Assembly: GCA_001871075.1 (NCBI GenBank)
Contig: MNUP01000027.1
Coordinates: 1 to 20,194, forward strand
Direction of reading: 5' to 3'
Length of the DNA: 20,194 bases
Source: Candidatus Desantisbacteria bacterium CG1_02_49_89
GTDB lineage: Bacteria; Desantisbacteria; UBA1551
Below the pieces are notes generated by a model that saw only the letters and a program-made list of their open reading frames with translations, did not search any database and was not told the origin of the DNA. Below, piece after piece: positions 3,450 through 19,481 of this stretch. A program made the position numbers and the translations under genes. How positions within the stretch are numbered: the first letter of the stretch is position 1; the number at the start of each line of letters is the position of its first letter.

Positions 3450-4103
3450 ATGAATATATTATATATAAATTCAAAAAATCCCGAAAAGAAAAAAGTCGGG
3501 AAAGCGGCAGGCATAATAAGGAAAGGCGGCGTTGTTATTTTCCCAACGGATACCGTATACGGGATAGGCGCGCGCGCTGACCGCAAGGTATCTGTCGGCA
3601 GGATATTCAGGATAAAGGGGAGGGCCGGAAATAAACCCCTTATATTATTTATTAATAAAAGAGACTTAAATATATATATCAAATGCATTCCCGCAGGCGC
3701 GAAAAAAATTATCGCAAGATTCTGGCCCGGCGCCCTTACTATGGTATTTAAGGCGGGCCGGGGCATCAGGTTCCCGGTAAAAGACAGGCGCGGCACCGTA
3801 GGGATAAGGATGCCTGATCACAGGTTCCTTCTCGCGGTCCTGAAAAAAGCAGGGGTGCCGTTCGCCACTACAAGCGCTAACATATCCGGGCAGAAAAGCC
3901 CAACAAGCGTGAAAGATATACCGGAAACCATGCTGAATAAAGCGGACCTGGTCATAGATGGCGGCAGGACATCCAAAGGGAAGGCATCCACTGTTCTTGA
4001 CCTGACCGCTGAGCCGTTCAGGGTCCTGCGCGAGGGAGCGGTTTCCTTAAAGCAACTGCAAAAGGCTGTTCGTGCATCGTGCTTCGTTCATCGTGTGTCG
4101 TAA
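3450..4103 (+). CDS. L-threonylcarbamoyladenylate synthase (TsaC/Sua5/YrdC family)
   Basis: Makes threonylcarbamoyl-AMP from threonine, bicarbonate and ATP, the first step of the t6A37 tRNA modification. At 217 residues it is a single YrdC domain without the Sua5 C-terminal domain. Family motifs are GGVVIFPTDTVYGIGARAD, the block IKGRAGNKPLILFI, FWPGALTMVF, GIRMPDH and FATTSANISGQ, then STVLDLT and LREGAVS. The ATG at 3450 is chosen because it immediately precedes the conserved N-terminus; the upstream TTG at 3363 lies inside the promoter. No strong Shine-Dalgarno is visible. The last ~10 codons (4070-4100) are a period-7 word array, so the C-terminal tail ASCFVHRVS is probably not ancestral. 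Confidence 0.93.
   Translation: MNILYINSKNPEKKKVGKAAGIIRKGGVVIFPTDTVYGIGARADRKVSVGRIFRIKGRAGNKPLILFINKRDLNIYIKCIPAGAKKIIARFWPGALTMVFKAGRGIRFPVKDRRGTVGIRMPDHRFLLAVLKKAGVPFATTSANISGQKSPTSVKDIPETMLNKADLVIDGGRTSKGKASTVLDLTAEPFRVLREGAVSLKQLQKAVRASCFVHRVS
4070..4100 (+). repeat. Period-7 array forming the 3' end of the tsaC/sua5-like gene
   Basis: Units TCGTGCA, TCGTGCT, TCGTTCA and TCGTGTG run from 4070 to 4097, with TCG following, directly before the TAA. Seven is not a multiple of three, so successive units are read in different phases. Confidence 0.75.
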
Positions 4104-4173: not shown

Positions 4174-4647
4174 ATGAGAGTGGCTATAGGGAATGATCAC
4201 GCGGGATGCGGGCTGAAATCCGCGATCGCGGGTTACCTGGAAAAAAAGGGGATCGCGTACAGGAATTTCGGGACTGACAGCGGGGAACCCGTGGATTACC
4301 CGGATATCGCGGCTCCTGTCGCGGAAGCCGTCAGCAAAGGCAGGTATGACAGGGGGATCCTGATATGCGGTACCGGGATAGGGATGTCCATGGTAGTCAA
4401 TAAATTCCCGGGAATAAGGGGCGCCGTATGCCATAATATTTTCACGGCGAAGGTGAGCCGATCTCATAACGACGCCAACATGCTTCTCCTGGGAGCGCGG
4501 GTCCTGACAAGAAAGAAAGCGATGGGGATCGTAAAGGTATGGCTGGGAACGGAAGCGGAAGGCGGAAGGCACGCGCGCCGTGTGCGCAAGATAACCGAGA
4601 TCGAGAGAAGGCTATGCAAGAGTCAAAGAGTCATAGAGTCAAAGTAG
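4174..4647 (+). CDS. rpiB: Ribose-5-phosphate isomerase B
   Basis: Interconverts ribose 5-phosphate and ribulose 5-phosphate in the non-oxidative pentose phosphate pathway. The RpiB/LacAB fold is shown by MRVAIGNDHAG at the N-terminus, the phosphate-binding and catalytic block ICGTGIGMSM with its cysteine, and SRSHNDANMLLLGARVL. At 157 residues it is slightly longer than the usual 145-150. The excess is the C-terminal tail, encoded by a period-8 array (4619-4644). AAAAGGAAA just before the ATG at 4174 is a reasonable ribosome binding site, and a promoter lies at 4109. An inverted copy of the GATTTCAGCGAT word sits in the leader (4146-4157). Confidence 0.95.
   Translation: MRVAIGNDHAGCGLKSAIAGYLEKKGIAYRNFGTDSGEPVDYPDIAAPVAEAVSKGRYDRGILICGTGIGMSMVVNKFPGIRGAVCHNIFTAKVSRSHNDANMLLLGARVLTRKKAMGIVKVWLGTEAEGGRHARRVRKITEIERRLCKSQRVIESK
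4619..4644 (+). repeat. Period-8 array at the 3' end of rpiB
   Basis: AGAGTCAA, AGAGTCAT and AGAGTCAA run in direct tandem from 4619 to 4642, with AG following. They encode the terminal SQRVIESK of RpiB, ending at the TAG stop. Confidence 0.8.
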
Positions 4648-6616: not shown

Positions 6617-6618
6617 AA

Positions 6619-6686
6619 CGTGTCAACGTGTCAGCGTGTCAGAGTGTCAACGTTTAAACTTTAATCTAAATCTAAATCTTAATCTG
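6619..6686. repeat. Period-8 and period-6 arrays between obgE and proB
   Basis: Four octads (CGTGTCAA, CGTGTCAG twice, AGTGTCAA) run from 6619 to 6650. Then four hexads (AATCTA twice, AATCTT, AATCTG) run from 6663 to 6686. GTTTAAAACG before and CGTTTAAAC after the octads form an imperfect inverted pair. The arrays occupy nearly the whole 80-bp spacer and leave no clear ribosome binding site for proB. Confidence 0.8.
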
Positions 6687-7905: not shown

Positions 7906-9105
7906 ATGGACAAAAAAATATATACTGTTTCTGAGCTCACCACAAAAATAAAGCTCCTTATTGAGATGAACCTTTCGGACATATGGGTGGAAGGCGAGAT
8001 CTCGAATTTTAAATCATATCCCTCCGGCCACCTTTATTTTGACCTGAAGGATGAGGGCGGGGTCCTTCCCGCAGTTATGTTCAACGGCAGAGACAGGCTT
8101 AAATTCAAGCCCGAAGACGGGATGAAGGTGATAGCCAACGGCCGGGCAAGCGCTTACCAGAAATCCGGAAAATACCAGCTTATCGTTGAAGCACTTGAGC
8201 CGGCAGGCCTCGGGGCTTTGTACCAGGCTTTTGAACAGCTGAAGGTAAAACTCAAGGCAGAGGGGCTTTTCGACCAAGAGCATAAAAGGCCCATACCGCC
8301 TTTCCCGGATTGCATAGGTATAATAACTTCAATAAAAGGCGCGGCTATAAGGGATATGCTGCGCACCATAACCGAAAGGTTCCCCGTGCCCCGCATTATC
8401 ATATACCCGGCCCAGGTGCAGGGAGAGGGCGCGGCTGAGGATATAGCGGAAGCCATACGGGAGCTCAACGGGCTTGACGAAGAGATAAGGCCTGACGTCA
8501 TAATAGCAGGCAGGGGAGGCGGGTCGATCGAGGACCTCTGGGCGTTCAACGAAGAGCCGGTCGCAAGGGCTATTTACGGCTCTGAGATACCGGTGATAAG
8601 CGCGGTAGGCCATGAGACGGATTACACCATAGCGGATTTTGTCGCGGATGTCCGCGCTCTCACTCCGACAGACGCGGGCAAGCGGGTTGTGGCAAAAAGT
8701 AAAAGGGAGTTGAAAGACGACCTGGAAAAGGGCTGGGTTGTAAGGCTGCAGACGTCCATGGAACATTCAATAGAGACGGAAAAAGCCAGGCTGGACAGCC
8801 TGTGTTCGATGCTGCGCACGCTCCATCCCAAGAACCGCATGGAATTCTACCAGCAGCAGCTTGACTCGCTTGACTCGGAACTGAATGATATCATTGGCCA
8901 TTACATGAGCGTGACGAAAGAAGAGGTAAAAAATTTATACGGCAAGCTTATGGTGCTGAACCCAGAGGCGATACTTGAGCGCGGATACAGCATCACGTTC
9001 CTTTTGCCTGAACACGGAATAGTCATGGACGCGGGGAAGGTAAATAAAGAAGACGAGATCGAGATAAAGGTCAAAAAGGGAATAATAAGGGCAAGGGTTG
9101 AATGA
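7906..9105 (+). CDS. xseA: Exodeoxyribonuclease VII large subunit
   Basis: Catalytic subunit of ExoVII, which degrades single-stranded DNA to oligonucleotides. The N-terminal OB-fold (1-~100) has YTVSELTTKIK and the block WVEGEISNFKSYPSGHLYFDLKD. The catalytic core has IGIITSIKGAAIRDM, the stretch DVIIAGRGGGSIEDLWAFNEEPVARAI and ISAVGHETDYTIADFVAD. A coiled-coil helical region and a C-terminal segment (LERGYSI) follow. At 399 residues it is shorter than the ~450 of E. coli, and the loss is in the coiled coil. AAAAGG precedes the ATG at 7906. xseB follows after 67 bp holding a palindromic repeat. Confidence 0.96.
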   Translation: MDKKIYTVSELTTKIKLLIEMNLSDIWVEGEISNFKSYPSGHLYFDLKDEGGVLPAVMFNGRDRLKFKPEDGMKVIANGRASAYQKSGKYQLIVEALEPAGLGALYQAFEQLKVKLKAEGLFDQEHKRPIPPFPDCIGIITSIKGAAIRDMLRTITERFPVPRIIIYPAQVQGEGAAEDIAEAIRELNGLDEEIRPDVIIAGRGGGSIEDLWAFNEEPVARAIYGSEIPVISAVGHETDYTIADFVADVRALTPTDAGKRVVAKSKRELKDDLEKGWVVRLQTSMEHSIETEKARLDSLCSMLRTLHPKNRMEFYQQQLDSLDSELNDIIGHYMSVTKEEVKNLYGKLMVLNPEAILERGYSITFLLPEHGIVMDAGKVNKEDEIEIKVKKGIIRARVE

Positions 9106-9111
9106 AATTCA

Positions 9112-9158
9112 CCCTCACCTCAATCCTCTCCCCTCGAGGGAGAGGACAAAGGTGAGGG
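9112..9158. repeat. Palindromic interspersed repeat between xseA and xseB
   Basis: CCCTCACCT (9112-9120) pairs with AGGTGAGGG (9150-9158). Inside, CCTCTCCCCTCGAGGGAGAGG (9125-9145) is nearly self-complementary. This CCCTCACC...CTCTCCC word type is a widespread REP/MITE-like palindrome. It creates a spurious 25-codon N-terminal extension for xseB starting at 9098. Confidence 0.8.
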
Positions 9159-9172
9159 GGGGCGGGGTTAAC

Positions 9173-9445
9173 ATGAAAGAATTCAAGTTTGAAGAAGCCA
9201 TGAAAAGGCTTGAGGAAATAGTCCAGAAACTGGAAGAAGGCAACCTGACGCTTGAAAAATCGCTTGAACTTTTCGAGGAAGGCGTCAAGCTTTCAAGGTT
9301 CTGCACCAAGAAGCTCGAAGAAGCGCATACCAAGATCGACCTGCTTACGAAAAATCCCGCGGGGAAGGCGGAGTTAAAGCCCTTTAAGGGAAAAGAAGAA
9401 GACGGCGGGAACGGGGAGAAAGAGGGCGGCGATAAACTGCTTTAG
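9173..9445 (+). CDS. xseB: Exodeoxyribonuclease VII small subunit
   Basis: Small helical subunit that assembles on XseA. The core MKEFKFEEAMKRLEEIVQ, then LEEGNLTLEKSLELFEEG and a CTKKLEEA helix, is diagnostic. The ATG at 9173 starts directly at the conserved N-terminus. A longer frame from 9098 only translates the palindromic repeat and is rejected. The 90-residue product has a short Lys/Glu/Gly-rich tail beyond the family core. The ribosome binding site is G-rich sequence (GGGGGGCGGGG) left by the repeat. Confidence 0.94.
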   Translation: MKEFKFEEAMKRLEEIVQKLEEGNLTLEKSLELFEEGVKLSRFCTKKLEEAHTKIDLLTKNPAGKAELKPFKGKEEDGGNGEKEGGDKLL

Positions 9446-12170: not shown

Positions 12171-12183
12171 CAGAATGAAGTAT

Positions 12184-15100
12184 ATGAAAAAATATTACGC
12201 AGGTCTGGATATCGGGTCGGTCAGCGTCAAACTTGTAATCCTCGATGCAGAAAAGAAGATCCTTAAAGATTATTACGTCCGCATAGAAGGCGAAGCGCTG
12301 CGCAGGACCGCTAAGGTCCTCAGGGATGCTTTCGCGCTTTTCAGGCAGGAAGATATAGCGGGCATGGCTGTTACGGGTTCAGGCGGCAAGCTTGTATCGG
12401 AAATACTCGGTGTCCCGTTCATCAACGAGATCATATCACAGTCAAAAAGCACCGGGTTCCTGTACCCCGGGGTTAAAACGATCATTGAGATAGGCGGCGA
12501 GGATTCAAAGTTCATACTTCTGGATGCGGGCAGAGGGACCGGCGCGGGTCTTATCAGGGATTTTTCAATGAACACGATATGCGCGGCAGGCACCGGTTCC
12601 TTCCTGGACCAGCAGGCTTCCAGGATGGGGTATACCATCGAGGAGTTCTCGGAGATCTCCCTTAAGTCTGTGACGCCGCCCAGGATCGCGGGCAGGTGCA
12701 GTGTTTTCGCCAAGACCGATATGATACACCTCCAGCAGGAGGCGACCCCTGATTACGATATAATAGCGGGCCTATGCCACGCGCTGGCACGCAATTTCAG
12801 GAGCACGATAGCAAAGAACAAGGATTTTGAAAAACCTATCTCTTTCCAGGGCGGGGTCGCGGCAAACAAAGGCATGGCAAGGGCTTTCAGCGAGGTCCTT
12901 GGGCTTGCCGGGAACGAGCTTGTTATCCCGGAATATTTCGTTTCGATGGGGGCTATAGGAGCGGCTCTCGCTCTCATTGAAAACCCGCTGAGCCAGGCCG
13001 GATTCAGGGACATAAGCGAGCTTGAAAAATACAGGATGGATCCCGCAGGCGCGCGGCTTGACCGGCTGACCGTGTCCGCAGGCGTGAATATCTTCGACTC
13101 GCTTGATGAAAAACCGATCGCCGAAGGTGGTATCACGGATGTTTTTCTGGGTGTGGACGTAGGTTCTGTCAGCACCAACGTTGTTGCCATAGACGGCAAT
13201 AAAAGGCTCCTTTCAAGGCAGTACCTGCCTACCGCCGGAAGGCCGATAGAAGCTGTAAGGAAGGGAATAGATGAGACGGGCAAGGAAATAGGCGGCAGGG
13301 TCAGGGTCAGGGGCGCAGGCACAACGGGTTCAGGCAGGTACATGACCGGTGACCTGATAGGGGCGGATGTCGTAAAGAACGAGATCACTGCCCAGGCAAG
13401 GGCTTCTATCGAGATCGATAAAAGCGTAGATACGGTTTTTGAGATAGGCGGGCAGGATTCAAAATTCATCAGCCTTAAGAACGGCGTTGTCACAGATTTT
13501 GAAATGAACAAGGTGTGCGCGGCCGGCACAGGTTCGTTCCTTGAGGAGCAGGCGGAAAGGCTGGGGATAAGCATCAAGGGTGAATTCGGCGATTGCGCGC
13601 TGCGGTCTCAGGCACCTTTGCGGCTCGGAGAAAGGTGCACGGTGTTCATGGAAACCGATGTCGTGAACCACCAGCAGAGGGGGGCGGGGAAAGAAGACAT
13701 CGCTTCAGGGCTTTCATACTCAATAGTGCAGAACTACCTCAACCGCGTGGTAGGGGATAAAAAGATCGGCGGCAATATTTTTTTTCAGGGCGCGGTCGCT
13801 TTCAACAGGGGAGTTGTTTCGGCTTTCGAAAAAGTTACAGGCAAAAAGATCACCGTCCCTCCCAATAACGACGTGACCGGCGCGATAGGCGTTGCGCTCA
13901 TCGCGATGGAATACATGAAAAAGAACGGGCTGAAGGAAAGCAGGTTCAAGGGATTTGACCTGTCGAAGAAGAAATACAGCATTTCAGCTTTTGAATGCAA
14001 AGGCTGCGCCAACAGGTGCGAGGTAAAGAAGGTCGAAGTTGAAGGGGACAGCCCGCTTTATTACGGTTCAAGGTGTGAGAAATATGAGGTCGGCAGGAAA
14101 AAAGCCAAAGTTGAGCTGCCGGACCTTTTCGCGGAGCGCGAAGAACTGCTGATGAAACCGCTGAAGGATGCGCTTAAGAGCGCAACCGCTACAAAAAAAG
14201 CGCGCTTTTCAATAGGCATACCGAGAGTGCTGTATTTTTACGAGCTGATGCCGCTGTGGATAACGCTTTTCAGGGAACTTGGATTTGACGTGGTGCTCTC
14301 GGACGCGACCAACAAGTCAATAATCCACAACGGGGTCGAATCAGTTGTTTCAGAGCACTGTTTCCCCATCAAGGTCGCGCACGGCCACATCCAGAACCTG
14401 CTTGAGAAGAAATGCAGTCATATATTTTTCCCGGTGCTGGTGAACCTGTACGGCGAATACCACGGGATAGAAAAGAGCTATGAGTGCCCTTTTGTGCAGG
14501 CGTGCCCTGACATAATAAAGTCCGCGCTCGAGCTTGGCAAAGAAACAGAATTGCTCAGCCCGGTTGTGTACCTGCGCAGGGGTAAAGAACACCTGGTCGA
14601 CGTGATGTTCCGGATGCTGGACAGGTTCGGGATAAAGAAGGCGGAGGTCAGGAAAGCCGCGGGAAAAGCGGTAAAAGCGCAAACGGAATTTTACGGCGCT
14701 GTCAGGAAAAGAGGCAGCGAAATACTCGGTTCTTTGAAAGAAAGGGCGGTGGTCGTTGTAGGCAGGCCTTATAACACGTGCGATCCGGGCCTGAACCTTG
14801 AGATACCCAAGAAACTCAGGGAAATGGGGATCCTCGCGATCCCTATGGACTACCTTACGCTTGAAAAGGTCGAGCTCGGGGTTGAATGGCCGAACATGTA
14901 CTGGAAATACGGGCAGCAGATACTCGCCGCCCTCAGGATCATAAAGGCGCATCCCAAGCTTTACCCTCTTTACATCACGAATTTCGGGTGCGGGCCGGAT
15001 TCCTTCATACTGAAATACTTCGGCAAGGAAGCCGGAAGAAAACCATACCTGAGCATTGAGGTGGACGAGCACAGCGCCGGGGCGGGCGTTATTACGAGGT

Positions 15101-16422
15101 GCGAGGCGTTCCTGGACAGCCTGGAAAACCTGGGCGACATCATCGAGCCGCATCTTCCGGGCCAGAGCATAATATCGTATTCCCCTTCGCAGGACGATCT
15201 TGCGGGGCGAAGGCTTTACGTCCCCTACATGGGCAACAGCGCTTACATTGTGGCGGCCGCGTTCCGCGCCTGCGGCCTGGATTCCGAGGTCATGCAGGTA
15301 GCTGACTCAAGATCGGTTGAGCTCGGAAGGCGGCATACTTCAGGCAAAGAATGTTTTCCCTGCATTATCACGACCGGCGACATAGTGAAAATGCTGCAGT
15401 CGCCGGGTTTTGACAGAAGGAAGGCCGCGTTCTTTATGCCTTCGGCAAGCGGCCCGTGCAGGTTCGGGCAATACAGCAAATGGCAGAGGCTTGTGCTTGA
15501 CGACCTCGGTTTCCCCGATATCCCGGTGCTCGCCCCCAACCAGTCGTCTGATTTTTACAAAAGCCTTTCCGGGTACGGCAGGGATTTTGACCGCAGGGCG
15601 TGGCTGGGCGTGTGCGCTGTTGACGCCATTGACAAGCTCGTCAGGGAAACCAGGCCTTATGAGAAAAACAGGGGGGAGTCAGACCGCCTCTACGGGGAAT
15701 GCCTGAAGATGCTGGAGAAAGCTATCGAGGACGGAAGCATATTCGATTACAGGCGCATGCTTGAAAGCATCAGGGGCAGGTTTGAAACGGTCAAGGCTGG
15801 CCGGAGATCACCTGCCAGGCCGGTCATAGGCATTGTGGGGGAGATATATATCCGCTCGCATCACTTCGCGAACAACGGCATAGTGAACGCAGTCGAGGAA
15901 CTCGGGGGCGAAACCAGGGTTTCTTCAATGGCGGAATGGTTTTTCTACACGAATAAAAACAGGCTTGACGGCTGGGCCCTTGAAAAAAATTATATCAGAT
16001 ATCTTATTGACAGCGTGAAGGATGCCTGGCAAAGGCAGAAAGAGCATATTACCGAGGAAGTTTTCTGCGGCCTGCTTTCCGACGGCAGGGAGCCGGGCGT
16101 TGAAGAGATGCTGAACAGCAGTAACCCCTACCTGAACAGGAGCATTGAGGGTGAGGCGGTGCTCAGCGTAGGCAAGGCAATTGATTACATCAGGAAGGGC
16201 GCAAGCGGGATAATAAACGTAATGCCGTTCACCTGCATGCCGGGCACCAATGTCAGCGCTGTCCTGACAAGGGTGAAAAAGGATTTCGGGGATATACCGG
16301 TGCTGAACATGTCCTACGACGGCCTTGAGCAGACCACGGCGAGAACAAGGCTTGAGGCGTTCATGTTCCAGGCGGCACAGTTCAAAAATAGTGTCCAGCG
16401 GCCAGTGTCCAGTGGTCAGTAA
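12184..16422 (+). CDS. Giant 2-hydroxyacyl-CoA dehydratase activase-like protein (BcrAD/BadFG family)
   Basis: Two tandem ASKHA-fold ATPase domains come first, each with the [4Fe-4S]-bridging cysteines of the activase family: C133 in CAAGTGSFLDQQA and C172 in GRCSVFAKTD, then C445 in CAAGTGSFLEEQA and C485 in ERCTVFMETD. A cysteine cluster C605-x2-C608-x3-C612 follows. A DUF2229-like region starts at ~676 (IGIPRVLYFYELMPLW) and a dehydratase-subunit-like region runs from ~900 to the end. Such ~1,400-residue proteins are common in strict anaerobes; their substrate is unknown. The family couples ATP hydrolysis to low-potential electron transfer. The ATG at 12184 starts at the conserved YAGLDIGS; 12175 is an alternative, and the TTG at 12145 lies in repeat DNA. 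No dehydratase subunit gene is adjacent. The last ~10 codons are a heptad array. Confidence 0.9.
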   Translation: MKKYYAGLDIGSVSVKLVILDAEKKILKDYYVRIEGEALRRTAKVLRDAFALFRQEDIAGMAVTGSGGKLVSEILGVPFINEIISQSKSTGFLYPGVKTIIEIGGEDSKFILLDAGRGTGAGLIRDFSMNTICAAGTGSFLDQQASRMGYTIEEFSEISLKSVTPPRIAGRCSVFAKTDMIHLQQEATPDYDIIAGLCHALARNFRSTIAKNKDFEKPISFQGGVAANKGMARAFSEVLGLAGNELVIPEYFVSMGAIGAALALIENPLSQAGFRDISELEKYRMDPAGARLDRLTVSAGVNIFDSLDEKPIAEGGITDVFLGVDVGSVSTNVVAIDGNKRLLSRQYLPTAGRPIEAVRKGIDETGKEIGGRVRVRGAGTTGSGRYMTGDLIGADVVKNEITAQARASIEIDKSVDTVFEIGGQDSKFISLKNGVVTDFEMNKVCAAGTGSFLEEQAERLGISIKGEFGDCALRSQAPLRLGERCTVFMETDVVNHQQRGAGKEDIASGLSYSIVQNYLNRVVGDKKIGGNIFFQGAVAFNRGVVSAFEKVTGKKITVPPNNDVTGAIGVALIAMEYMKKNGLKESRFKGFDLSKKKYSISAFECKGCANRCEVKKVEVEGDSPLYYGSRCEKYEVGRKKAKVELPDLFAEREELLMKPLKDALKSATATKKARFSIGIPRVLYFYELMPLWITLFRELGFDVVLSDATNKSIIHNGVESVVSEHCFPIKVAHGHIQNLLEKKCSHIFFPVLVNLYGEYHGIEKSYECPFVQACPDIIKSALELGKETELLSPVVYLRRGKEHLVDVMFRMLDRFGIKKAEVRKAAGKAVKAQTEFYGAVRKRGSEILGSLKERAVVVVGRPYNTCDPGLNLEIPKKLREMGILAIPMDYLTLEKVELGVEWPNMYWKYGQQILAALRIIKAHPKLYPLYITNFGCGPDSFILKYFGKEAGRKPYLSIEVDEHSAGAGVITRCEAFLDSLENLGDIIEPHLPGQSIISYSPSQDDLAGRRLYVPYMGNSAYIVAAAFRACGLDSEVMQVADSRSVELGRRHTSGKECFPCIITTGDIVKMLQSPGFDRRKAAFFMPSASGPCRFGQYSKWQRLVLDDLGFPDIPVLAPNQSSDFYKSLSGYGRDFDRRAWLGVCAVDAIDKLVRETRPYEKNRGESDRLYGECLKMLEKAIEDGSIFDYRRMLESIRGRFETVKAGRRSPARPVIGIVGEIYIRSHHFANNGIVNAVEELGGETRVSSMAEWFFYTNKNRLDGWALEKNYIRYLIDSVKDAWQRQKEHITEEVFCGLLSDGREPGVEEMLNSSNPYLNRSIEGEAVLSVGKAIDYIRKGASGIINVMPFTCMPGTNVSAVLTRVKKDFGDIPVLNMSYDGLEQTTARTRLEAFMFQAAQFKNSVQRPVSSGQ
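16390..16420 (+). repeat. Heptad array encoding the activase C-terminus
   Basis: AGTGTCC, AGCGGCC, AGTGTCC and AGTGGTC run in register from 16390 to 16417, then AGT. They encode the terminal SVQRPVSSGQ up to the TAA at 16420-16422. Confidence 0.8.
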
Positions 16423-16426
16423 CAGC

Positions 16427-16462
16427 AGTTTATAGAGTTTATAAAGTTTACACAGTTTACAA
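16427..16462. repeat. Period-9 array downstream of the activase gene
   Basis: AGTTTATAG, AGTTTATAA, AGTTTACAC and AGTTTACAA run in direct tandem from 16427. The core AGTTTACA is the same word as the period-8 array inside recN at 18511. The rest of the spacer to 16535 shows an AAGGAGGGAG stretch at 16507-16516, about 20 nt before nadK. Confidence 0.8.
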
Positions 16463-16535
16463 AGGTCAAAAGTAACTCAGGGCTTCTCGAAGACCCGCCA
16501 ATTTTTAAGGAGGGAGTCCTGATACTGCGGAACAT

Positions 16536-17324: not shown

Positions 17325-19004
17325 GTGCTGAAAGGCATTGAGGTAGAGAATTTCGCCATCATAGATAACCTGAAGCTGCAGTTCCACAAGGGCCTGAATG
17401 TTTTTACCGGGGAAACCGGGGCAGGCAAGACGATAATCATAGAGGCGCTTTCAGCGGCCCTGGGCGAGAAAACCGGGCAGGAGGTTGTGAGGACCGGCGA
17501 GGAAAAAGCAAGGGTTGCCGCGCTTTTTGACATCACGGATGTTGAAGGGATCACCGGCATTAAGGGGGAAGAACTGCTTTTCCAGAGGGAGGTAGGCCCG
17601 GGAAAGAGCGCTTGTTCTCTTAACGGCAGGATGGCGCCGGTTTCTTCGGTAAGGGAAGCCGGGAACGCGCTGGTGGACATTCACGGCCAGCATGAGCACC
17701 AGGCAATACTGAACACATCGCGCCATATAGACCTGCTGGACAGGTTCGGCGGCCTATACGGCGAGCAGAAAGAGGTCGCGAAGAAATACATTGAGCTGAA
17801 GCAGAAAGAAAAAAGGCTTGAGGAGCTTACCGGCCTTGAAAAAACCGAAGAGAGCGTGAGGGAGCTCCTCCAGTTCCAGGTCGAGGAGATAAAAAGGGCG
17901 AAGCTTAGTGAGGTGGAGGAGCCGGAGATAGAAAAGGAGCGCCTGCTTCTCGCTAACGCCCAGAAGCTCAATGAAGCGCTGAGCCTTGCGTACCAGGGCC
18001 TTTACGAAGAGGAAGGCGCGGTGGCTGAACGCGTCAGGAAGATCAGCGCGCAGCTTGAGGCGCTTGGGTCAATTGACGCGGAGCTGTCAGAGATCGCAAG
18101 AATGCTTGAAGAAGCTCGCGTGTCCATTTCTGACATCGCTTCCAGGATAAGGGTCCGCAGGGATGGGATCCAGTATGACCCCGGCAAACTTGAGGAACTC
18201 ACTGAAAGGCTGGATTTCATAGGAAAACTCAAGCGCAAATACGGCCCTGCTGTTGCGGATGTCCTGAAGTTCGGCGCAGAGACGGAAAAAAAGCTCAAAG
18301 AGATCTCCTCGCACAAAGAGGAGATAGAAAAGCTTGGCGGGGAAATAGTAAAACTGGAGAACGAGGCGTTGAAACAGGCAAAGGAGCTGTCGCGGAAAAG
18401 AAAAACCGCCGCGGCCAGGCTTGAGAAGAAAATGGTGGAAGAGCTGGCAGGGCTGGAGATGAAGAAAACGCAGTTCAGGGTTGACATTAAGCCGCGAAAA
18501 CCAAGTGCGCAGTTTACAAGTTTACAAGTTTACAAGTTTATAAGTGAGGAGCTGGGACCGAAGGGCATAGATGACGTTGAATTCCTGATCTCCCCAAACC
18601 CCGGGGAGGATCTACGACCGTTATCAAAGATCGCTTCAGGCGGGGAGACTTCCCGGATAATGCTCGCTTTGAAATCCATACTTGCCGACGCGGACGAGAT
18701 ACCGGTCCTTGTATTTGACGAGATCGACATAGGGATCGGCGGAAAGACAGCGTCAAGCGTGGGAGAGAAGCTCAGGAAGCTTGCCGGGAAGAAGCAGATA
18801 CTGTGCGTAACGCATCTCCCGCAGATAGCCGCGTTTGCGGATGTCCATTTTAAAGTGGAGAAAGTGGTAGAGAAAGGCAGGACCAAGACATCTGTCCGCA
18901 AGCTTGATGACAATGAAAAGGTGGAGGAAATAGCGAGGATGATAAGTGGCGAAAAAATTACTTCCACTTCTTTGAAACACGCTCAGGAACTGCTGAGAAA
19001 ATAA
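17325..19004 (+). CDS. recN: DNA repair protein RecN
   Basis: SMC-like ATPase acting in recombinational repair of double-strand breaks. The start is GTG at 17325, immediately after the nadK stop, with CAGGGAG upstream. Walker A is GETGAGKT (29-36), followed by the RecN-specific HGQHEHQAIL. A long Lys/Glu-rich coiled coil fills ~155-370. The ABC signature ASGGE (437-441), Walker B VLVFDEID (461-468) and THLPQIAAFAD complete the head. The 559-residue length is usual. Between the coiled coil and the signature, residues ~396-408 (FTSLQVYKFISE) are encoded by a period-8 array; the frame and all catalytic motifs are intact. Confidence 0.97.
   Translation: MLKGIEVENFAIIDNLKLQFHKGLNVFTGETGAGKTIIIEALSAALGEKTGQEVVRTGEEKARVAALFDITDVEGITGIKGEELLFQREVGPGKSACSLNGRMAPVSSVREAGNALVDIHGQHEHQAILNTSRHIDLLDRFGGLYGEQKEVAKKYIELKQKEKRLEELTGLEKTEESVRELLQFQVEEIKRAKLSEVEEPEIEKERLLLANAQKLNEALSLAYQGLYEEEGAVAERVRKISAQLEALGSIDAELSEIARMLEEARVSISDIASRIRVRRDGIQYDPGKLEELTERLDFIGKLKRKYGPAVADVLKFGAETEKKLKEISSHKEEIEKLGGEIVKLENEALKQAKELSRKRKTAAARLEKKMVEELAGLEMKKTQFRVDIKPRKPSAQFTSLQVYKFISEELGPKGIDDVEFLISPNPGEDLRPLSKIASGGETSRIMLALKSILADADEIPVLVFDEIDIGIGGKTASSVGEKLRKLAGKKQILCVTHLPQIAAFADVHFKVEKVVEKGRTKTSVRKLDDNEKVEEIARMISGEKITSTSLKHAQELLRK
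18511..18545 (+). repeat. Period-8 array inside the recN coding sequence
   Basis: AGTTTACA occurs three times, then AGTTTATA once, in perfect register from 18511 to 18542, followed by AGT. The frame is kept across it. The same AGTTTACA word forms the period-9 array at 16427, about 2 kb upstream. Confidence 0.88.
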
Positions 19005-19021: not shown

Positions 19022-19279
19022 ATGACGCAATATAAAAAACTTTTGGCTAAGATTTTACAGGGCAGTTCCGATGCAAATATTGCTTTCACAGAAATACGTC
19101 AGTTGCTAATCAGTCTGGATTTTGATGAGCGCATTCGTGGCAGTCATCACATTTTTACAAAAGATGATATTGTGGAGATTTTGAATTTACAGACTAAAGG
19201 TGCAAAAGCAAAGCCATATCAGGTTAAGCAGATTCGAAATATAATCTTGAAGTATAAACTCGGAGGTGGAGATGTTTAA
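19022..19279 (+). CDS. hicA: HicA-family toxin
   Basis: HicA toxins are small double-stranded RNA-binding-fold ribonucleases that cleave mRNA. The 85-residue product has the motif RGSHHIFTKDD with the catalytic histidine (42 or 43) and the C-terminal KPYQVKQIRNIILKYKL typical of one common HicA subgroup. It starts 18 bp after the recN stop; the ribosome binding site is weak (GGGGTAG). It overlaps hicB by 8 bp, the usual toxin-first order. Base composition is lower in GC than recN, consistent with acquisition. The motif series makes the call strong. Confidence 0.9.
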   Translation: MTQYKKLLAKILQGSSDANIAFTEIRQLLISLDFDERIRGSHHIFTKDDIVEILNLQTKGAKAKPYQVKQIRNIILKYKLGGGDV

Positions 19280-19481
19280 GTATGAAGTAATTATCTATTG
19301 GAGCGATGAGGACAAAGCGTTTATCGCTGATGTTCCCGAATTGCCCGGCTGTATGGCTGACGGAAAAACTTATCAGGAAGCCCTGGATAACGCAAAGGGG
19401 GTAATCCATGAGTGGATCGAAACCGCCAAAGAATTGGGGAGGGCAATTCCTGAACCAAAAGGGCGGTTGGTATTTGCATAA
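19272..19481 (+). CDS. hicB: HicB-family antitoxin (short form)
   Basis: HicB neutralises HicA. The 69-residue product is a single partial RNase H-like domain: YEVIIYWSDEDKAFIADVPE, then LPGCMADGKTYQEAL and HEWIETAKELGR with IPEPKGRL. No C-terminal helix-turn-helix or ribbon-helix-helix is present, so autoregulation would need another DNA-binding factor. The ATG at 19272 is preferred over the GTG at 19266, because GGAGG (19262-19266) is its ribosome binding site. Confidence 0.9.
   Translation: MFKYEVIIYWSDEDKAFIADVPELPGCMADGKTYQEALDNAKGVIHEWIETAKELGRAIPEPKGRLVFA

Follow-up and report, generated by a model that had tools for sequence, protein, structure and literature searches.

Rickettsia palindromic elements (RPEs) are palindromes of 105-146 bp with terminal inverted repeats, which lie between genes and also in frame in conserved genes, where they are apparently tolerated (PMC2229807). 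Repeats of the heptamer TAACTGA are found in marine Beggiatoaceae, cyanobacteria and Bacteroidetes; they comprise few units and are mostly intergenic, although some lie within ORFs, oriented so that no stop arises and mainly close to the ends of the protein (PMC4679880). GGGNATC heptamers of Xanthomonas and Nostoc are dispersed genome-wide between co-oriented genes, and their preference for four units has been ascribed to G-quadruplexes (PMC4692102). In the P6b loop of the Nostoc trnL intron, heptanucleotide repeats have been replaced by another class of repeat at the same site (PMC4476775). Arrays of heptamers or octamers are known from a few bacteria, and have mostly been treated as intergenic, with one word per genome.

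Here, we describe the draft genome of an uncultured bacterium (2.48 Mb in 150 contigs; 93.5% completeness), which combines dozens of words, a single usual size of array and frequent placement of arrays in frame within core enzymes (RecN, TsaB, RibD, ThiL and ValS). This combination shows how spacer DNA can turn into protein sequence without loss of the gene. The starting point was an array within recN, in a window of 20,194 nucleotides that is one contig of this draft. It is not special to recN: spacer-type arrays in genes are a genome-wide pattern involving dozens of words.

An in-frame octad array in an intact recN

The recN gene of the window (17325-19004, forward strand) starts with GTG and encodes an intact, full-length protein of 559 amino acids. 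Its assignment rests on TIGR00634, which matches over the entire profile (1-563 of 563) with an E-value of 2.1e-157 and 525.5 bits, against a curated cut-off of 407.85; the motifs GETGAGK (residues 29-35) and SGGE (438-441) fall in invariant alignment columns. Within the gene, at 18511-18545 on the same strand, Tandem Repeats Finder (TRF) reports an in-frame array of the octad AGTTTACA with period 8, 4.4 copies, 96% match and a score of 63. Its 35 nt are direct octads, one of them altered, and are not palindromic. They code for residues 396-407, the QFTSLQVYKFIS region, N-terminal to the SGGE signature. The word AGTTTACA occurs six times in the window, compared with 0.44 on average and at most 3 in 100 shuffles. 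For tandem structure the recN DNA scores 24.5, a value reached by none of 1000 synonymous-codon shuffles (maximum 17.0), so protein sequence and codon usage cannot account for the array. An earlier note on this DNA had reported four octads in frame before the ABC signature of an otherwise intact recN, and these results bear that description out. Downstream of recN, at 19022-19481, two small ORFs resemble by eye a HicA/HicB-type pair.

The AlphaFold2 model of this RecN has a mean pLDDT of 88.8, and its sole segment below 50 spans residues 396-405, joining strands 383-390 and 416-423. The array-encoded residues of RecN thus make up a disordered loop that links two strands and precedes the ABC signature. 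This peptide most likely lacks a function of its own, and the protein seems to tolerate the floppy segment.

Relatives put the loop into context. The only other genome in the phylum set, which belongs to the same order and is here called G001, has a RecN that is 60% identical, and RecN proteins from other phyla reach 36-44% identity in a scan without the own genome. Between I388 and G414 there are 25 residues in this RecN versus 8 in that of G001, a difference of 17 residues or about 51 nt, of which the array makes up 35. The left, non-octad part of the extra sequence, as defined by comparison with G001, covers 18489-18510 on the forward strand; none of its 14-mers recurs elsewhere in a 0.90 Mb sample of the genome. 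None of the peptides FTSLQ, SLQVYK and VYKF appears anywhere in 108 further RecN proteins, drawn from many phyla, and the recN array is therefore specific to this lineage. The same residues at 396-408 of distant RecN proteins, with unrelated codons, were what the earlier note had named as evidence against its account, and none of the 108 carries them.

The boundaries of an insertion are less sharp than the comparison with G001 suggests, since the same loop ranges from 8 to 34 residues among 109 RecN proteins, with a mode of 21-22 that lies close to the 25 found here. In other phyla, typical loops of both RecN and RibD nearly match those of this genome in length, so that, judged from sequence comparison, replacement of an older loop and insertion into a short one are equally possible origins of the recN array. 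The claim that a spacer word entered an essential-type gene without breaking it thus keeps its core, as the array is in frame and RecN is intact. It needs qualification in two respects: replacement of the loop may explain the array as well as a true insertion, and recN is usually non-essential.

A genome-wide population of four-unit arrays

The window contains several other arrays, detected by TRF and given on the forward strand. Between a CoA-enzyme-activase-like ORF and an NAD-kinase-like gene, an intergenic AGTTTAYAN array of AGTTTATAA/AGTTTACAA units occupies 16427-16464, with period 9 and 4.2 copies. Immediately before it, a AGTGTCCAGCGGCC array (a 7/14-mer; 16390-16420) forms the C-terminus of ORF 12175-16422 and belongs to the gene-edge class. 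From the gene coordinates, a TCGTGCA heptad array (4070-4101) likewise forms the C-terminus of ORF 3450-4103, and a AAGAGTCA octad array (4618-4644) lies at the C-terminus of ORF 4174-4647. An intergenic AACGTGTC octad array is found at 6617-6653; this octad family is the most frequent of the sample, with 15 intergenic, three interior and two edge arrays. At 9098-9160, an alternative TTG start upstream of ORF 9152-9445 would add HPHLNPLPSRERTKVRGGG, which resembles another dispersed repeat read as protein.

Surveys drew on 0.90 Mb from this genome and 0.65 Mb from G001, with genes taken from a simple codon-based caller. Of the period 7-8 arrays in the 0.90 Mb, 160 were intergenic, 34 lay at the edges of genes and 34 in their interiors. 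Part of this sample had been picked for the double octad, so that counts of that word are biased upward, whereas whole-genome searches are unbiased. After synonymous-codon shuffling, zero to two interior arrays remained of the 34. For periods 7, 8, 14 and 16, the density per 100 kb was 134 in intergenic DNA, 45 over the final 40 codons of genes, 29 over the initial 40 and 5.7 in the middle. The population consists of units of 7-10 nt, about four per array and about 30-35 nt in total, and comprises at least 81 word families. Words of gene-internal arrays reappear between genes, and the same words are found in unrelated genes and spacers. The arrays are also concentrated in this genome: period 7-8 arrays amount to about 25 per 100 kb, versus about one in loci of many other phyla (1.04 Mb), and the 0.65 Mb of G001 contained none between genes and five within them. 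Perfect double AGTTTACA octads occur 27 times in this genome and not once in 58 other genomes. The perfect triple octad has three sites in the 2.48 Mb assembly, all genic (recN, ribD and tsaB), and is absent from 289 other genomes; the search for further genes with arrays of this word, which the earlier note had proposed, thus led to two additional hosts. Near recN in Deltaproteobacteria, Poribacteria and Nitrospirae (L175:5648-5689, L188:1603-4006 and L248:7968-8687), isolated period-7 arrays some 25-42 nt long were also seen, so the class is widespread but sparse.

Genes with internal arrays include the conserved genes tsaB, ribD, thiL, valS and that of a phosphomannomutase, and most of the arrays fall in loops, in signal peptides or at the ends of genes. 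Whereas tsaB and ribD carry the octad of recN, valS and thiL carry others. Several host proteins are unusually long: TsaB has 286 amino acids versus 212 in the model, and ValS 961 versus about 860. The valS gene (L091:6078-8960) contains three separate in-frame arrays, each of a different word. RibD exceeds its G001 counterpart by 12 residues, which are exactly the array, yet its length is about that which is usual for other phyla. In several proteins, the hydrophobic part of putative signal peptides is, as judged by eye, built from arrays, for example LVLTLHLTPCTLHCYAAE. Putative signal peptides at L099:13076, L100:2698, L101:7204, L119:10231, L127:9653 and L058:937 consist largely of TTACAC- or TTTCAAC-type heptad arrays.

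Spacer repeats within genes are not confined to tandem arrays. Here, 14-mers common to at least four spacers formed 72 gene-interior islands, distributed over 53 genes, against 9-17 islands in shuffled sequences; G001 had 33 such islands, distributed over 18 genes, against 3-6 in shuffled sequences. Those of G001 are mainly GTAGTGGCAGAGTTTACTCTGC-type palindromes, several of which lie in frame in thiL (L166:3372-4616; 415 amino acids versus 320 in the model) and in tsaB (L166:7370-8254; 295 versus 212). Intergenic palindromes also recur inside genes in both genomes. Each of the two relatives therefore has its own spacer repeats in frame in genes, partly in the same ones.

Tract length is strikingly uniform, with peaks at 30-33 nt for period 7, 34-35 nt for period 8 and 28-31 nt for period 10, and almost no tract exceeds 40 nt. 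The distribution of unit numbers is the same within and outside genes, and array size clusters at about four units regardless of the word; most words are not G-rich. Period, in contrast, depends on location for the AGTTTAYA family, in which non-genic arrays mainly have period 9 (35 of 44) and genic arrays period 8 (four of five, with one tie; Fisher p 3e-4). The array at 16427-16464, which the earlier note had taken as kin of the recN array, does share its word but differs in period class; given the split by location, it is not likely to be the direct source. Period-9 arrays preserve the reading frame and lack stops in two of the three frames of each strand, and period-8 arrays are open in the sense strand only. 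Stop codons were rejected as a cause of the period-8 preference in genes, since the reading frame would favour the opposite. The split is a concrete clue to the movement of these arrays.

How the arrays may have reached genes

We consider it probable that the recN array is a gene-internal member of a passive, tolerated, genome-wide population of arrays that spread as pre-formed blocks. Arrays would reach new sites ready-made, through some form of copying, for instance template switching or ectopic copying from one array to another, and would not grow unit by unit in place. Identical words in unrelated genes suggest block copying, and growth by single units is unlikely in recN, where the gain or loss of one or two octads leads to a stop at residues 401-413 and only three-octad changes preserve the frame. 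The constant tract length, with its peaks at 30-33 and 34-35 nt, also counts for blocks over steps. Selection would then eliminate each copy that breaks a gene, so that surviving arrays would sit where the protein tolerates additional or changed residues, namely in its loops, signal peptide or termini; the gradient in density from spacers to the middle of genes (134, 45, 29 and 5.7 per 100 kb) points to such selection. Similarity between the flanks of interior arrays is raised (3.56 versus 2.99 ± 0.14). We found neither mobile machinery nor a donor copy nor a strain with an empty site, and the spreading is therefore a process that we infer. The division between period 8 and period 9 counts against block copying, which does not predict it. 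Target-site duplication, as would be expected of a transposable element or MITE, was rejected, as the spacing of flanking direct repeats is divisible by three in five of 16 cases, which is the chance level.

Birth in place is a rather unlikely explanation. Local strand slippage would act on a chance seed within the gene, selection would keep net changes that are multiples of three, and shared words would reflect biased slippage. Short words, imperfect units and the lack of target-site duplications agree with such an origin, as do the similar lengths of usual RecN and RibD loops, which would allow an existing loop to be overwritten. Slippage in place is, however, hard to reconcile with words shared by unrelated genes and spacers, or with a perfect triple octad confined to three sites of the assembly, all of them genic, and found in 0 of 289 other genomes; in recN, moreover, its steps of one or two octads would break the frame.

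The uniform size invites a more speculative and rather doubtful idea, namely that a length-measuring, perhaps dedicated, DNA process writes arrays of about 32 bp, or roughly three helical turns, with four units regardless of the word, both between and inside genes. Should this be true, unit number would be set by the writing machinery and not by slippage or G-quadruplexes, and the process would keep rewriting the loops and signal peptides of proteins.

Turnover of words at fixed, tolerant sites appears improbable as the main explanation. Arrays would be old residents whose word is homogenised or exchanged over time, for which the Nostoc trnL intron P6b loop offers a published parallel in its replacement of one repeat class by another (PMC4476775). 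The phosphomannomutase and TsaB of G001 do carry arrays of other words at sites where this genome has arrays (p 0.03 and 0.04). Two similar genes of this genome with near-identical flanks (L070:17625-17655 and L106:506-609) likewise have different heptads, of the GCTATGA and TATCGCG types, at one site. Such cases are few, however: two of 13 orthologous sites in G001, with a third marginal, have an array of another word, the 13 sites taken together give no significant result (p 0.20), and the recN and ribD of G001 simply have no array.

Slightly less probable again is a contingency locus, in which octad slippage would switch RecN off and on and make DNA repair phase-variable. As in such loci, unit changes toggle the reading frame of recN, with three octads restoring it. 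Against a switch stand the small number of units (4.4, one of them altered), the presence of arrays in the housekeeping genes tsaB, ribD, valS and thiL, where switching would be harmful, and tract lengths that cluster at four units with no slippage tail. An assembly or binning artefact, conceivable in a draft genome (150 contigs, 93.5% complete), is very improbable indeed, as the arrays lie within contigs, in frame in intact conserved genes, at dozens of independent sites and with many words.

Comparison with known repeat systems

The earlier note had likened the recN array to RPEs, and the likeness holds at the level of an intergenic repeat that also occurs in frame in genes. As with RPEs, arrays of this genome are both intergenic and in frame in conserved genes; unlike RPEs, they are not palindromes, being direct repeats of 7-8 nt units, about 32 nt long, in at least 81 word families. 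In having many dispersed arrays of 7-8 nt units, mostly between genes, the genome conforms to the short tandem repeat pattern. TAACTGA repeats likewise are short and direct, consist of few units and lie mostly between genes with some in ORFs, but involve one word where there are many here, and here interior loops of core enzymes are occupied as well. Heptamers dispersed between co-oriented genes and a preference for four units are shared with GGGNATC repeats and cyanobacterial STRRs, although the words of this genome are mostly not G-rich; a four-unit preference without G-tracts calls into question the G-quadruplex explanation for the Xanthomonas and Nostoc repeats. The Nostoc trnL intron provides a further likeness, short repeats in a tolerant loop of a functional gene, with an RNA intron there and protein genes here. 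The arrays are best read as passive protein-coding repeats that act like RPEs but consist of short tandem units of the STRR type. This genome joins features known separately: in-frame spacer repeats from RPEs, short direct repeats in ORFs from the TAACTGA family, and exchange of repeat classes at one loop from Nostoc.
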